A stretch of DNA of 64,000 bases from Rhodococcus erythropolis NBRC 15567 (GTDB lineage Bacteria; Actinomycetota; Actinomycetes; Mycobacteriales; Mycobacteriaceae), in assembly GCF_001552595.1 (NCBI RefSeq), contig NZ_BCRM01000001.1, positions 682,001-746,000 of the forward strand, in the 5' to 3' direction. Of the stretch, positions 24,884-30,025 are shown in pieces; position 1 is the first letter of the stretch; each line of letters begins with the position of its first letter. The translations under genes and the position numbers were made by a program. Under the pieces are notes generated by a model. The model was not told the DNA's origin. It did no database searches and worked only from the letters and a program-made list of their open reading frames with translations.

Positions 24884-25071
24884 CACATCTCCTGGTTTCG
24901 CAGATTCGGCGGGCTGTCCGGATCTGCGACAACTGTGACCTGGCGAGGCATTCGCTGTACATGTAGATCTTCGTTCGAGAATTGCCAGTTTGCTTAACTC
25001 CGCTGTTCAGGTACCGTGATGGTCGTCACTTTAAGTCGAGCGGCGGGTCGAAAACAACCGAATGGACGGTA

Positions 25072-25971
25072 ATGAAGAAGGCGAGAAGAGGCGAAGATCT
25101 GAATCTGCGTTTGGTGTCCTCGTTGCTCGTCGTCGTGGCGGAAGGGCACTTCGGGCGAGCGGCAGACCGGCTGTTCGTCACCGCGCCCGCCCTCAGTCAG
25201 CAGATTCGACGACTCGAGGAGCAGGTGGGAGTCGAGTTGGTCGATCGCAGTTCGCATCCGGTGGTGCTCACCGCCGCGGGTGAGGTGTTCGTCGCGGATG
25301 CGCGGCCCGCTCTCGAGTTTGCCGTTCGCGCGATGAACGGTCTCGACGCACTCGAGCGTCGGCGGGCCAGGCGGTTGCGGATCGGATTCATCAACGGGGC
25401 TGCCGGGAGTTTGGGGCGTGCGGTGATCGATTCGTTGCATGCGGAGGTGGAGCTCGTCCAGTTGGATTGGTCCCAACAGGTTTCGGCGGTGGCGAGCGCG
25501 ACCGTCGACGCGGCATTCGTGCGACCGCCACTGCCGGTGCTCGACGGTGTGGTGCTCGAACGGATAGGCGTCGAACCGCGGGTGGTGGCTCTGCCTCGAG
25601 GGCACCAACTGGCGGGTCGCGCGAGCATCGAAATTTCTGAAATAGATGGGACTGTGCAGGTTTCGAGTGACGGCGCACCATCCGAATGGGTGAAATGGTG
25701 GTCGGTGGACCCGCGCCCGAGTGGTGTACCCGTCCGGTACGGTCCCTCGGTCCGCACGATGGACGAAGCACTCGAGGTTGTCGCCAACGGTCGGGCGGTG
25801 GTGATAACGGCAGCAACCATTGCCGAGTACTACACCCGCTCGGATATTAGTTTCGTGCGCATTTCCGACATCGAGCAGTGTTCGATCGATCTGTGTACCC
25901 GTGAGGGCGACAGCAGTCCGGCAGTGATCGAGCTACGCAAAGCTGTTTCGGCCCTCGGTGCCGGCAGGTGA
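25072..25971 (+). CDS. LysR-family transcriptional regulator
   Basis: A 299-residue LTTR. The start at ATG 25072 gives MKKARRGEDLNLRLVSSLL. The N-terminal winged helix is canonical (VAEGHFGRAADRLFVTAPALSQQIRRLE). The effector-binding domain fills the rest (about residues 95-295). It is divergent from the NTF2-SDR operon across a 188-bp gap (24884-25071), the usual LTTR arrangement, so it probably activates that operon and represses itself. An 8-bp palindrome TACATGTA at 24958-24965 is a weak operator candidate. Confidence 0.88.
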   Translation: MKKARRGEDLNLRLVSSLLVVVAEGHFGRAADRLFVTAPALSQQIRRLEEQVGVELVDRSSHPVVLTAAGEVFVADARPALEFAVRAMNGLDALERRRARRLRIGFINGAAGSLGRAVIDSLHAEVELVQLDWSQQVSAVASATVDAAFVRPPLPVLDGVVLERIGVEPRVVALPRGHQLAGRASIEISEIDGTVQVSSDGAPSEWVKWWSVDPRPSGVPVRYGPSVRTMDEALEVVANGRAVVITAATIAEYYTRSDISFVRISDIEQCSIDLCTREGDSSPAVIELRKAVSALGAGR

Positions 25972-26020: not shown

Positions 26021-26055
26021 TTGCCGTCTTCGTTTTAGTCGGTTAGACTAAAACC
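26021..26055 (+). promoter_or_regulatory. Promoter with overlapping 23-bp operator, leaderless start
   Basis: A -35 TTGCCG (26021-26026) and a -10 TAGACT (26044-26049) are spaced 17 bp, which places transcription start at or next to the ATG at 26056. A perfect inverted repeat, GTTTTAGTC (26032-26040) and GACTAAAAC (26046-26054) with 5 bp between, covers the spacer and the whole -10. There is no Shine-Dalgarno site, so the transcript is probably leaderless. The TAGTC/GACTA half-sites resemble NrtR boxes, and an NrtR-like protein is the last gene of this operon. Confidence 0.75.
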
Positions 26056-27087
26056 ATGAAAACGATCAGCACGGCACTTGAAATCGTCGAGGCAGCACGA
26101 GTTTCGGCCGATGTGTTCGGGGGAGACTCCAGCGATCTCGACACCCGTCGCGCTGCGAAGCGTCGTTTTCATCGGCTCGCCTCCGCCATTCATCCGGACC
26201 GGGCGAAGCCCGAAGATCGGGTGCGATACTCGGCCGCAACATCTCGGTTGAACGAGCTTTACCGCAGTTGGGCAGCGGAGTTCGAGCCGGCAGATTCTCG
26301 ACCCGTTTATGTCGGCGAGCGGGGCGAGTACACGTTGGGTGGACTGGTAGCGCGCGGCTCGGTCGCTAACCTGTACCGGTCCGATGCCGGTGTCGTACTG
26401 AAGATTCCGCGAAACCCTCGGGCGAACTCGATGATCGAGGCCGAACGGAATGTGTTGACGGACATCGAGAATTCGTGCGAAGCCGGTTGGGCAGTCTCGT
26501 ACTTCCCGCGATTGATCGATCGAATCACCCATGTGGGCAGCGGCACGAGACGTCAGATCGATGTGTTGGACGATCTGACCGAAGGTTTTGTGAGTCTCGC
26601 CGACGTCCGTGAGGCGTATCCAGGTGGCCTCGATCCACGGGACTGGGCGTGGATGCACCGACGGCTACTTCGGGCTCTGGCAGCAGCGCATGCGACTGGT
26701 TGGGTGCACACGGCGATTACCGCGGAGAACGTGCTGATCGAGCCTGATCGGCACGGGGTGGTGCTGGTCGGCTGGTCCTTTGCCACCCGTACGGGCAGCC
26801 GCCCGGTGGCGACGATCGGTTCCGATCGTGATTCGTACCCAACGGAACTCGGCGAAGGAGCGTCTCCGGCCTGGGACGTCTACATGGCTCATCATTTGAT
26901 GCTCCGAATGCTGGGCGAGCAGGCCCACGAACGGATGAAGGCGTTTGCCGACGGCTGCATGCAGGACAACCCGAGATTGCGTCCCGACGCGGTCGACCTA
27001 CTTGGCGAGTTCGACGAACTCCTCGATCTTCTCTATGGCCAGCGGACATTTCGTCCGTTCGCCGTTCCATCCACGAAAGGACAGTGA
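26056..27087 (+). CDS. J-domain / pseudokinase fusion protein
   Basis: A 343-residue protein of unusual architecture. Residues about 5-75 form a J-domain with the diagnostic HPD at 46-48, which in this family stimulates Hsp70 (DnaK) ATPase. Residues about 90-330 form a protein-kinase-like fold. The ATP lysine is kept (VLKIPR, Lys116). The catalytic loop is HTAITAEN, so the HRD aspartate is Ala220, and the DFG motif is GWS (239-241). It should therefore be a pseudokinase, possibly a nucleotide or partner-protein sensor. It is the first gene of a four-gene operon and starts directly at the promoter-operator. The function is unknown. Confidence 0.8.
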   Translation: MKTISTALEIVEAARVSADVFGGDSSDLDTRRAAKRRFHRLASAIHPDRAKPEDRVRYSAATSRLNELYRSWAAEFEPADSRPVYVGERGEYTLGGLVARGSVANLYRSDAGVVLKIPRNPRANSMIEAERNVLTDIENSCEAGWAVSYFPRLIDRITHVGSGTRRQIDVLDDLTEGFVSLADVREAYPGGLDPRDWAWMHRRLLRALAAAHATGWVHTAITAENVLIEPDRHGVVLVGWSFATRTGSRPVATIGSDRDSYPTELGEGASPAWDVYMAHHLMLRMLGEQAHERMKAFADGCMQDNPRLRPDAVDLLGEFDELLDLLYGQRTFRPFAVPSTKGQ

Positions 27088-27092
27088 TTGTC

Positions 27093-28079
27093 ATGGGCTA
27101 CGGATACTGGGACGACAATACCTATTTGGCGGGCAAGACTTTTCGTGCCGCACGCGGTGTCGACGATTTCGGTTACACCGATTCGCTTCGGTCGCGTCCG
27201 CGAAGCAGTTGGAAAGCGGACCCGACCCTCGACCCCTTCGGCGTCGACAAGCGTGAATGCCGAGACTCGGACGGGCACCCCGATTCTCTCCCGATAGCAG
27301 TGCTTTTCGATGTCACCGGCTCGATGGGCGCCGTTCCTCGAATCATGCAGGACAAGCTCGGAAAGCTGCACGGGCTGCTGCAACGCAAGGGATATGCGGA
27401 TGATCCGCAGATCCTGTTCGGTGGTATCGGCGACGCCGATTCCGATCAGGTGCCACTACAAGTCGGCCAGTTCGAGTCGGGTAACGCGATGGACGAGCAG
27501 CTTCGGACGATCTTCCTCGAGGGCAACGGTGGTGGACAGAAGTCGGAAAGCTATGAATTGGCAGCGTATTTCATGGCGCGCCACACCAGTACGGATGCCT
27601 GGGAGAAGCGTGGAAGAAAAGGCTACCTCTTCATCATCGGTGACGAGCTGAACAAGCCGCGGCTCTCGGCTCGTCACATCCGTTCGGTGATCGGGGACAA
27701 GGTACGTCAGGACGTGTCGGTTCCGTCGATCTACCGTGAACTCGAAGAAAGATGGAATGTCTACTTCGTTCTGCCCGATCAGTCGTCGTACTTCAACGAT
27801 CCGGAAATCGCGGATCACTGGAAGACGTTGCTCGGTGAACGTTTCGTCAAACTCGACGATCCCGCCGCGGTGTGCGAACTGATCGCGCTGACGGTCGGAA
27901 TCGGCGAGGACCGCATCGACCTGCGTGACGGACTGGCGGATCTCCGCGACATCGGTTCAAGAGCTGAAGCCGAGACTGTCGGCAAGGCTCTCGCCCTGAT
28001 CCCAGGGCGCAGCACCGCGACGGTGGCCGGGTTGCCCCGCGATCTCGGAACCGGCACGGACGATGTCGATTTCGCCTAG
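27093..28079 (+). CDS. von Willebrand factor A domain protein
   Basis: A 328-residue protein. I prefer ATG 27093, with AAAGGA upstream, over a GTG overlapping the previous stop. After about 65 residues rich in Arg, Asp and Tyr comes a vWA core: LPIAVLFDVTGSMGAV, a MIDAS metal site of the DxTxS type at residues 73-77, then GGIGDADSDQV, and KGYLFIIGDELN. The last 40 residues are Ala/Gly-rich. vWA proteins are usually metal-dependent protein-binding scaffolds, often paired with chaperones, AAA ATPases or kinases. Here the pairing is with a J-domain pseudokinase five bases upstream. Confidence 0.8.
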   Translation: MGYGYWDDNTYLAGKTFRAARGVDDFGYTDSLRSRPRSSWKADPTLDPFGVDKRECRDSDGHPDSLPIAVLFDVTGSMGAVPRIMQDKLGKLHGLLQRKGYADDPQILFGGIGDADSDQVPLQVGQFESGNAMDEQLRTIFLEGNGGGQKSESYELAAYFMARHTSTDAWEKRGRKGYLFIIGDELNKPRLSARHIRSVIGDKVRQDVSVPSIYRELEERWNVYFVLPDQSSYFNDPEIADHWKTLLGERFVKLDDPAAVCELIALTVGIGEDRIDLRDGLADLRDIGSRAEAETVGKALALIPGRSTATVAGLPRDLGTGTDDVDFA

Positions 28080-28091
28080 AAGGAGAACATG

Positions 28092-29378
28092 ATGGAGCCG
28101 TTCGAAGACCGCGATATCGTCGTCGTAGACCTCGGGTTCGGAGATGCAGGGAAGGGAGCAACCGTCGATTGGCTTTGCTCCGATCGAGCCGATCTGAATG
28201 TGGCCGCAGTGGTCCGCTTCAACGGTGGGGCACAGGCAGCGCACAACGTGACGGTCGGCGAGCGCCACCACACGTTTTCGCAGTTCGGCTCGGGAACGCT
28301 GTCCGGCGTCCCGACGTTTCTCTCGAGATTCGTGTTGGTCGAACCCATCGCGCTCGCACGGGAAGCGCGTGCACTGGAAGCGCTCGGAGTTCGAAATCCG
28401 TTCGACCTGATACGGATCGACGCGCGCGCACTGTTGACGACGCCGATCCACGTGGCCGCCAACAGGGCCCGTGAGGATGCTCGCGGCGGTAACCGACACG
28501 GCTCGTGTGGCAAGGGGATCGGTGAGACCGCGGCGTATGCGCTCGAAGTTGCCGATGCGCCGACGGTGGGAGACTGCCGGCGACCTGAGTCCTTGCGTCG
28601 TAAGTTGTCGGCGTTGGCCACATTCTACGGACCGTTGATCGCGGAGAGTCGCCACGGTTTTCCGCCGATCGACGACATGGTCGACATGTACGCGGAATTC
28701 GGTGCCGTCGTGGACATCTCCGACCCGGATGCGCTGGGCGCGTTGGGTGCCGGTGGTCGTCTGGTGTTCGAGGGGGCACAAGGTGTCCTTCTCGACGAAT
28801 GGCGGGGGTTTCACCCACACACCACGTGGTCGACGGTCGAGCCGTCCAACGCGCGAGCGATGATCGACGAGTTGGGCCGGGACAGTTACGTACTCGGCGT
28901 CACCCGCACGTACATGACACGACACGGAGCTGGGCCGTTCCCGACGGAGGATCCGGAGCTGGCGAAGGTGTTGCCCGAGCTGCACAACGGGACGGGTGAG
29001 TATCAAGGCGGATTCCGGACGGGTCACTTCGACGAGTTGTTGTTGCACTACGCAATCGAGGTGAGCGGTGGCGTCGACGGCTTAGCGCTTACTCATCTCG
29101 ACGCGATGGATCGCGCGCGGGCTGCAGGCATCCCGATCCACGGGGTGCACGCGTACGAAGGATTGCCGTTCGTTCCCGTCGGAGAGTGGAAGGATCTCGA
29201 TCACCAGCAGGCGCTGACAGATTCCCTGAAAGCCGTAGGGGTCGTGCCCAAGGAACTTCCGGCCGACCCGGAGGATTTCGCCCGGTATCTGAGCGAGGAA
29301 ATGGGTGCGCCGGTAGTGCTGACCGCGAACGGTGCCGACCGGGTCGATCGTCAGGTGCGATGCCCAGTGCCTGCATGA
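28092..29378 (+). CDS. Divergent adenylosuccinate synthetase (PurA) paralogue
   Basis: A 428-residue PurA-fold GTPase-ligase (ATG 28092 lies six bases from AAGGAG; another ATG is three bases earlier). Retained features are GDAGKG with the catalytic Asp at 18, the His equivalent at about 51 (GGAQAAH in place of GGHNAGH), GSCGKGIGETAAY, FEGAQGVLLD and MTRHGAGPFPTED. The aspartate-binding stretch is replaced: usual PurA has a loop with TTGRPRRCGWFD, whereas here it reads GEYQGGFRTGHFDE and is about four residues shorter. It is unlikely to be the housekeeping purine enzyme. It probably couples a phosphorylated nucleotide to a different amine or acid. The stop overlaps the Nudix gene by four bases. 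Confidence 0.8.
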   Translation: MEPFEDRDIVVVDLGFGDAGKGATVDWLCSDRADLNVAAVVRFNGGAQAAHNVTVGERHHTFSQFGSGTLSGVPTFLSRFVLVEPIALAREARALEALGVRNPFDLIRIDARALLTTPIHVAANRAREDARGGNRHGSCGKGIGETAAYALEVADAPTVGDCRRPESLRRKLSALATFYGPLIAESRHGFPPIDDMVDMYAEFGAVVDISDPDALGALGAGGRLVFEGAQGVLLDEWRGFHPHTTWSTVEPSNARAMIDELGRDSYVLGVTRTYMTRHGAGPFPTEDPELAKVLPELHNGTGEYQGGFRTGHFDELLLHYAIEVSGGVDGLALTHLDAMDRARAAGIPIHGVHAYEGLPFVPVGEWKDLDHQQALTDSLKAVGVVPKELPADPEDFARYLSEEMGAPVVLTANGADRVDRQVRCPVPA

Positions 29379-30025
29379 TGGACGGTGTGGACCAGTCACT
29401 TGTCTCGATCGATGTCATCGCGCTCCGGTTCGGCAATCCGGAACCCGGGATGTTGCGATTTGCCGTCACTCCGCGGCAGGCGGAGCCGTACACCGGGCAG
29501 TTGGCGCTGCCCGGTGTACTGCTGGGCGCCGGTGAGCGGTTGCAGGACGCCGCCAGGCGAGCCGTGACCACCAAGCTCGGAATTCCCGACGAGAAGATCC
29601 TCGTCAGCGGTCAATTGACCGTGTTCGACGAACCCAATCGCGACCCCCGCGGTCCGACGCTCTCGGTGACCATGTGGGCAGTGATCTCGTCGGACGAGGT
29701 GCCGGGTTCGGCCGAATGGGTGAGCTGGGACAACCCGGGAGACCTTGCGTTCGACCACAATCGGATAGTCGCCGATACCCGCCCGATCCTTGCTGACACC
29801 CTGTTGTGGCGAGATCAGGCTTTCACGCGTGCACTACTGGGTCCGTCGTTTCCGGCGTCGTACGCGCTGGCCGTGGCGGAGGAGCTTTCCGGTGTGCGTC
29901 CGGACCCGGGCAACTTGAACCGGACGCTCAAAGCGTTGCCAGGGCTGGAACGTACGGACGAACGAGTCCGGGTCAGTGCCACCGGGCGACCCGCGGTGGT
30001 CTGGGCGTGGACCGAAAACAGCTGA
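29375..30025 (+). CDS. NrtR-like degenerate Nudix / winged-helix regulator
   Basis: A 216-residue protein starting at ATG 29375 (ATGA overlap with the previous stop). An N-terminal Nudix fold (about residues 10-140) carries the box GVLLGAGERLQDAARRAV and then TTKLGI. All three catalytic glutamates of REUxEExGU are replaced, so hydrolysis is unlikely. The C-terminal 70 residues resemble the NrtR winged helix (ALAVAEELSGVRPDPGNLNR, then LKALPGLERT and GRPAVVWAW). NrtR proteins bind ADP-ribose and repress NAD genes. The operon's operator has NrtR-like half-sites, so autoregulation by a nucleotide ligand is the simplest reading. Confidence 0.8.
   Translation: MMDGVDQSLVSIDVIALRFGNPEPGMLRFAVTPRQAEPYTGQLALPGVLLGAGERLQDAARRAVTTKLGIPDEKILVSGQLTVFDEPNRDPRGPTLSVTMWAVISSDEVPGSAEWVSWDNPGDLAFDHNRIVADTRPILADTLLWRDQAFTRALLGPSFPASYALAVAEELSGVRPDPGNLNRTLKALPGLERTDERVRVSATGRPAVVWAWTENS

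Follow-up and report, generated by a model that had tools for sequence, protein, structure and literature searches.

A putative NrtR-family switch with its own palindromic operator at the predicted leaderless promoter of a phage-shared operon in Rhodococcus erythropolis

Introduction

How might a four-gene operon be controlled when a perfect palindrome lies across its promoter and its first start codon stands six bases beyond the -10 element? The question is raised by a stretch of 64,000 nucleotides from Rhodococcus erythropolis NBRC 15567 (hereafter the window, meaning the whole of the DNA analysed). The first-pass annotation of this DNA had proposed a leaderless promoter covered by NrtR-type boxes and autoregulated, in response to a nucleotide ligand, by the NrtR-like product of the last gene of the operon. 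Our analysis supports much of this proposal and revises its identification of the box. Overall, the explanation that we consider very likely is that the Nudix/winged-helix protein encoded by the last gene represses its own operon from the palindrome, with a leaderless transcription start and with release by a ligand. The combination of kinase, VWA, PurA, and Nudix genes in this operon was not found described in any paper in our literature search.

Results

A perfect palindrome overlaps the promoter

The promoter region comprises the following features.

26021-26026, + strand: -35 element TTGCCG, with TTG at 16-18 bp spacing in most relatives
26027-26043: 17-bp spacer between TTGCCG and TAGACT
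26032-26054, no strand: 23-bp predicted operator, a perfect palindrome GTTTTAGTC-N5-GACTAAAAC, identified from a genome scan and 49 orthologous promoters
26044-26049, + strand: -10 element TAGACT, within the palindrome, with TANNNT in nearly all of the 49 promoters
26056-26058, + strand: ATG start codon, leaderless and predicted +1, six bases 3' of the -10

Read in order, the promoter letters are ...cattc TTGCCG tcttcGTTTTAGTCggt TAGACT AAAACc ATG AAAACG..., and the palindrome with its loop written out is GTTTTAGTC-GGTTA-GACTAAAAC. These coordinates agree with the arrangement originally described (TTGCCG, 17 bp, TAGACT, 6 bp, ATG, and no ribosome-binding site), the gap between the -10 and the ATG being too short for any ribosome-binding site. 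The perfect 9-bp inverted repeat reported over the spacer and -10 is also present, and overlaps the 3' 12 bases of the spacer, the entire -10, and, with the exception of a single base, the gap between the -10 and the ATG.

By itself, the palindrome is only modestly unlikely. Perfect repeats with 9-bp arms number 10 in the window (some of them nested duplicates) versus a mean of 2.6 in Markov simulations, and shuffles of the 84-bp gap upstream of the operon yielded such a repeat in 7/4000 cases. The promoter hexamers have 8/12 matches to the sigma-70 consensus, which is below the cut of 9 used in our scan, and the promoter was consequently not flagged. As the single-window statistic is weak and the promoter falls below this cut, we relied on comparative evidence, which we find decisive in indicating that the operator is not a product of chance. 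A genome-wide search for the 23-mer, as the first-pass annotation had suggested, found the operator once in 6.59 Mb at up to 3 mismatches, at this promoter.

Since the palindrome is an inverted repeat between two same-strand genes, it could be read as working at the level of RNA, either as a terminator of the upstream gene or as a 5' hairpin, with the true start lying further upstream. However, the sole terminator-like site in our terminator scan is elsewhere, and on this result we rejected the hairpin or terminator reading. The sequence 5' of the promoter is also not conserved among relatives, whereas TTG and TANNNT are, and the site is retained at loci whose upstream genes differ. An RNA function is thus very improbable, and we continue with the palindrome as a DNA operator.

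The site is conserved and changes symmetrically

Our comparison covered 49 related promoters (45 distinct sequences), taken from Rhodococcus and from further genera in its family. All 49 have the site at the same place, in its original or in a symmetrically altered form. Column counts across the set show the final T of the -10 and most right-arm bases to be invariant, while loop positions 4-5 (TA, the start of TAGACT) are retained in 45/49 and 48/49 promoters and loop positions 1-3, facing TA, are freely variable. The loop TA is needed by the -10 alone and yet is retained, which shows a promoter constraint on top of the symmetric operator. Selection acts on the same bases for both an asymmetric promoter and a symmetric operator.

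Among the most divergent operons (L150-L154, with regulators 44-47% identical), TAGTC..GACTA becomes TACTC..GAGTA, with both arms altered. At another locus (L146) the site is TTTCTAGTC..GACTAGAAA, and several sites have the outer G..C replaced by C..G. Symmetric double changes at three pair positions amount to 11 cells versus 2.0 on average over shuffles of the right arms (0/5000 shuffles reached 11). This control takes no account of relatedness, and five sequences may have inherited the inner-core change from a single event. The recognition helix of the regulator co-varies with the core, such that D-x-G-N-L-N-R occurs with TAGTC and H-R-A-N-L-N-R with TACTC.

Some Nocardia sites are asymmetric in the right arm (TAGCCT, TACACT). 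TTG at 16-18 bp spacing is not retained in the Nocardia-type operons that have a second upstream site, nor in a few others. In these Nocardia-type operons with a poor -35, the second, weaker operator-like site lies 47-48 bp upstream of the main one, or about 4.5 helical turns (L119, L120, L125, L126, L128, L130, L131, L133, L136, L138, and L175).

The site tracks the operon across genomes

We scanned 301 genomes of the family in both directions, and found 27 with a near-perfect site and the VWA gene, 1 with the site only, 11 with the gene only, and 262 with neither. Site and operon therefore co-occur strongly, as 27/28 site genomes hold the operon and 262/273 site-less genomes do not (Fisher p 1.4e-28). 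The site-only genome (G016) is a fragmented assembly in which the site precedes a kinase-like gene, and the 11 gene-only genomes have sites that are either degenerate or altered symmetrically. Orphan sites with a single mismatch, in L139 and L143, appear to be chance matches and were set aside; one in L118 proved to be at prs-nadV, as discussed below.

Two arrangements separate the site from its usual neighbors. At 13 loci the kinase gene is missing, and the site precedes the VWA gene. In G305 the site remains with the VWA-PurA genes, from which the regulator gene is separated by about 455 kb, and that unlinked gene lacks a site. These loci suggest that the site tracks the operon, with the regulator acting in trans and with autoregulation amounting to membership in the same operon. 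For the window, the autoregulation proposed earlier gains support from this linkage, the regulator being the last gene of the operon; judging from G305, autoregulation is not universal.

The same comparison bears on a LysR-type regulator encoded just upstream (25063-25971), which could be imagined to bind the palindrome and control the operon given that its gene adjoins it, on the same strand and 84 bp away. Only the window and the four closest relatives have its gene next to the operon, however, and the site persists without it at other loci. We rejected this candidate for want of co-occurrence; it is largely refuted, and we give it almost no weight.

Transcription is predicted to start at the first codon

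Among kinase-first operons, 35/36 place the ATG 6-7 nt beyond the -10. The sole exception (L051) reads AGG where the start codon would be, and its ATG comes 15 nt past the -10. The 13 VWA-first operons, from which the kinase gene is absent, have the same promoter followed by a leader, with the VWA start codon 21-31 nt past the -10 at those loci whose stretch read contained an ATG. Purine-rich sequences resembling ribosome-binding sites (GAGAGG, GAGAGGAG) are visible in the VWA-first leaders read. The short gap in one group and the leader in the other suggest that transcription starts just after the -10 in both. Leaderless mRNAs constitute about a quarter of mycobacterial transcripts, and an ATG or GTG at the mRNA 5' end suffices for leaderless translation in mycobacteria (PMC4633059). 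From these observations we infer that the operon mRNA is leaderless, with its 5' end on, or immediately beside, the A of the ATG at 26056.

Genes of the operon

The operon encodes four proteins.

26056-27087, + strand: J-domain (HPD) and kinase-like protein, 343 aa, with weak Pfam Pkinase/DnaJ matches and a match to phrog_3043 (kinase)
27084-28079, + strand: VWA-like protein, 331 aa, with a D-x-T-G-S-M motif (DVTGSMG) read from the sequence and a match to phrog_2971
28089-29378, + strand: divergent PurA-like protein, the second PurA homologue of the genome (PF00709, E 6.5e-60)
29375-30025, + strand: NrtR-family regulator with a degenerate Nudix domain and a winged helix, 216 aa, from profile matches to both domains

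The first protein is probably a pseudokinase. Across its orthologs HPD is conserved, HRD is replaced by HTA, and DFG by GWS, such that both aspartates are gone. The VWA-like protein is the most conserved of the operon, and the Pfam search did not find a VWA domain in it. The PurA-like protein scores far below the PurA equivalog cut-offs, and a canonical PurA is encoded elsewhere in the genome. Its catalytic Asp and His positions are present, the TTGRxRR segment involved in aspartate binding is altered, and THLD stands for TKLD; the latter two changes suggest that it may act on something other than the usual substrate. Matches to phage families were obtained for the kinase-like, VWA, and PurA-like genes, and in Rhizobium and Vibrio phages a VWA homologue lies next to a PurA homologue. 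PADLOC returned only weak kinase-type matches. Our guess is that the operon is a nucleotide-processing module for stress or phage conflict.

The last gene encodes an NrtR-family protein

The suggestion that the last gene is NrtR-like is well founded. Its product has a Nudix domain (PF00293, E 1.2e-4), and its family profile matches PDB 3gz5 (SoNrtR, the S. oneidensis NrtR; E 7.9e-14) and PDB 5bs6 (AraR; E 4.2e-18), in each case spanning both domains. The C-terminal part of the profile also matches 7q91 (NadQ), and hhalign gave 99.5% for the regulator against the NrtR of the same genome, in an alignment that reaches the C-terminus. In the Pfam search, PF21906 was not found in the window regulator and was sub-threshold (E 7e-4) in an ortholog (L151). 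A predicted structure was too poor to use (mean pLDDT 49.5) and was set aside. Together, the matches support membership in the NrtR family. With respect to the Nudix signature GX5EX7REUXEEXGU, E54 is present, RAVTTKLG stands instead of REUXEEXG, and the last three glutamates are gone. The domain thus appears catalytically impaired, as expected of a sensor (compare PMC4666351).

The operator is distinct from the NrtR box

The identification of TAGTC/GACTA as NrtR boxes is not supported for actinobacteria by the sources consulted. The published M. smegmatis and mycobacterial NrtR box is GTTTTCGA-N7-TCGAAAAC (PMC6800001), and it occurs in 13/13 NrtR loci checked. These include that of the window genome, whose canonical NrtR adjoins nadABC with its own such box, the nadABC site reading GTTTTCGATCCTAAGTCGAAAAC. 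The 23-bp length and the outer GTTTT/AAAAC are shared between this box and the operon operator, but the cores differ.

The canonical NrtR could nonetheless be supposed to bind the operon site, being of the same family as the operon regulator and having a box of the same length and outer bases. Against this, every NrtR locus checked has the nadABC-type box instead, the operon-type site is seen only together with the operon and its own regulator, and the recognition helices differ (DATNLQR in NrtR versus DPGNLNR in the operon regulator). We consider binding by NrtR highly unlikely. The operon regulator is better viewed as an NrtR-family member with a separate specificity that appears to be orthogonal. 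Its sole site in the Rhodococcus genome is not at an NAD gene, and we do not class it as an NAD regulator there.

A possible link to NAD

Four Nocardia genomes with nadV, of 108 searched, carry a palindrome of this operator type a short distance 5' of a prs-like/nadV operon (L118/L164, L161, L162, and L163), and all four also have the regulator of our operon. In one genome (G439) the operon site and the prs-nadV site share the left half GTTTTGGTT. This use of the same operator type on NAD salvage genes, together with the occurrence of more distant relatives of the regulator (37-41% identical over both domains) in prs-nadV operons of Arthrobacter and Curtobacterium plasmids, makes ADP-ribose, NAD, or a related compound a plausible guess for the ligand.

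At locus L054 (3840-6521), a further NrtR-like Nudix gene of the same genome was seen. By our reading of the sequence, it is divergent from an ADP-ribosylglycohydrolase-like/macro-domain-like gene, with about 27 bp between the two starts.

Discussion

A proposed circuit

We hypothesize that the 29375-30025 product, as a dimer, binds the palindrome at 26032-26054. Bound there, it would cover the -10 and the start point and switch off transcription of the whole four-gene operon, including its own gene. When the site is free, transcription would begin on the A of the ATG at 26056 or on a neighboring base, giving a leaderless mRNA in which translation of the first gene proceeds with no ribosome-binding site. 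The operon would be induced when the impaired Nudix pocket takes up a small ligand, which is probably ADP-ribose, NAD, or a nucleotide related to these, and the regulator leaves the DNA.

The second weaker site 47-48 bp upstream and the weak -35 of the Nocardia-type operons could instead point to an activator or a dual regulator. This is very unlikely, as a protein bound at the main site, which covers the -10 and the predicted start, should block RNA polymerase, and the characterised NrtR proteins are repressors (PMC6800001, PMC4666351). Simple repression is the reading that we retain.

More broadly, and only tentatively, an NrtR-family switch with its own operator may tie a phage-shared cassette to the NAD/ADP-ribose state of the cell. 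The cassette might produce or process an unusual purine compound when required, perhaps under stress or during conflict with phages. In some Nocardia, NAD salvage through prs-nadV might be switched on by this regulator as well. The regulator, operator, and promoter form one testable unit for this phage-shared operon, with a control circuit that can be read from sequence alone thanks to conservation in relatives, and the identity of the releasing ligand would be a pointer to the job of the operon. The kinase-first and VWA-first loci also provide a natural comparison of one promoter serving leaderless and leadered translation. Moreover, the genome encodes a pair of NrtR-family proteins whose operator codes appear to be distinct and to vary together with the recognition helix.

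Comparison with known systems

One of the closest known counterparts is the M. smegmatis NrtR (MSMEG_3198, PMC6800001), which likewise joins a winged helix to a catalytically impaired Nudix domain and has a 23-bp palindrome GTTTT...AAAAC at the promoter of its own gene (nrtR/nadABC). Of its six tested, essential DNA-contact residues (D167, T169, N170, R173, K179, and R196), the D, N, R, and R are also present in the operon regulator as D177, N180, R183, and R205, when aligned by way of the Rhodococcus NrtR. T169 is replaced by G179, and the equivalent of K179 was not placed in this alignment. The systems differ in the operator core (CGA-N7-TCG versus AGTC-N5-GACT here) and in the target, which is nadABC there and a kinase-like/VWA/PurA-like cassette here. 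In R. erythropolis, furthermore, the regulator is the last gene of the controlled operon, and the genome also has a true NrtR. BtAraR, a regulator of arabinose use (PMC4666351), offers a precedent for an NrtR-fold protein recruited to a role other than NAD metabolism; its Nudix signature is likewise impaired, and it has a DNA motif of its own. Unlike the protein described here, it responds to a sugar ligand, controls a catabolic operon through a different motif, and belongs to the Bacteroidetes.

The Nudix regulators of the Arthrobacter and Curtobacterium plasmid prs-nadV operons (L182 and L183) also contain both domains, but their targets are NAD salvage genes and the half-site differs. The sequence upstream of prs in L182 showed no conserved palindrome; L181 contains only a repeat that is longer and different. 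The Curtobacterium operon (L183, 1638-7627) is arranged as prs-TerD-nadV-NADAR-(TnpB)-Nudix regulator and carries a perfect CTGTTTGTC-N5-GACAAACAG, with a second partial copy nearby; this site has the same 9-N5-9 geometry as ours and the inner GTC/GAC.

For the cassette itself, a close likeness is the kinase-hypothetical-PurA block of Bixzunavirus, a group of phages of M. smegmatis. As annotated in Mycobacterium phage Gizmo (L179, genes 267-270), this block is without a Nudix regulator gene and has a small extra gene between the VWA and PurA homologues, but the first three genes of the operon have counterparts there in the same order, 30-44% identical.
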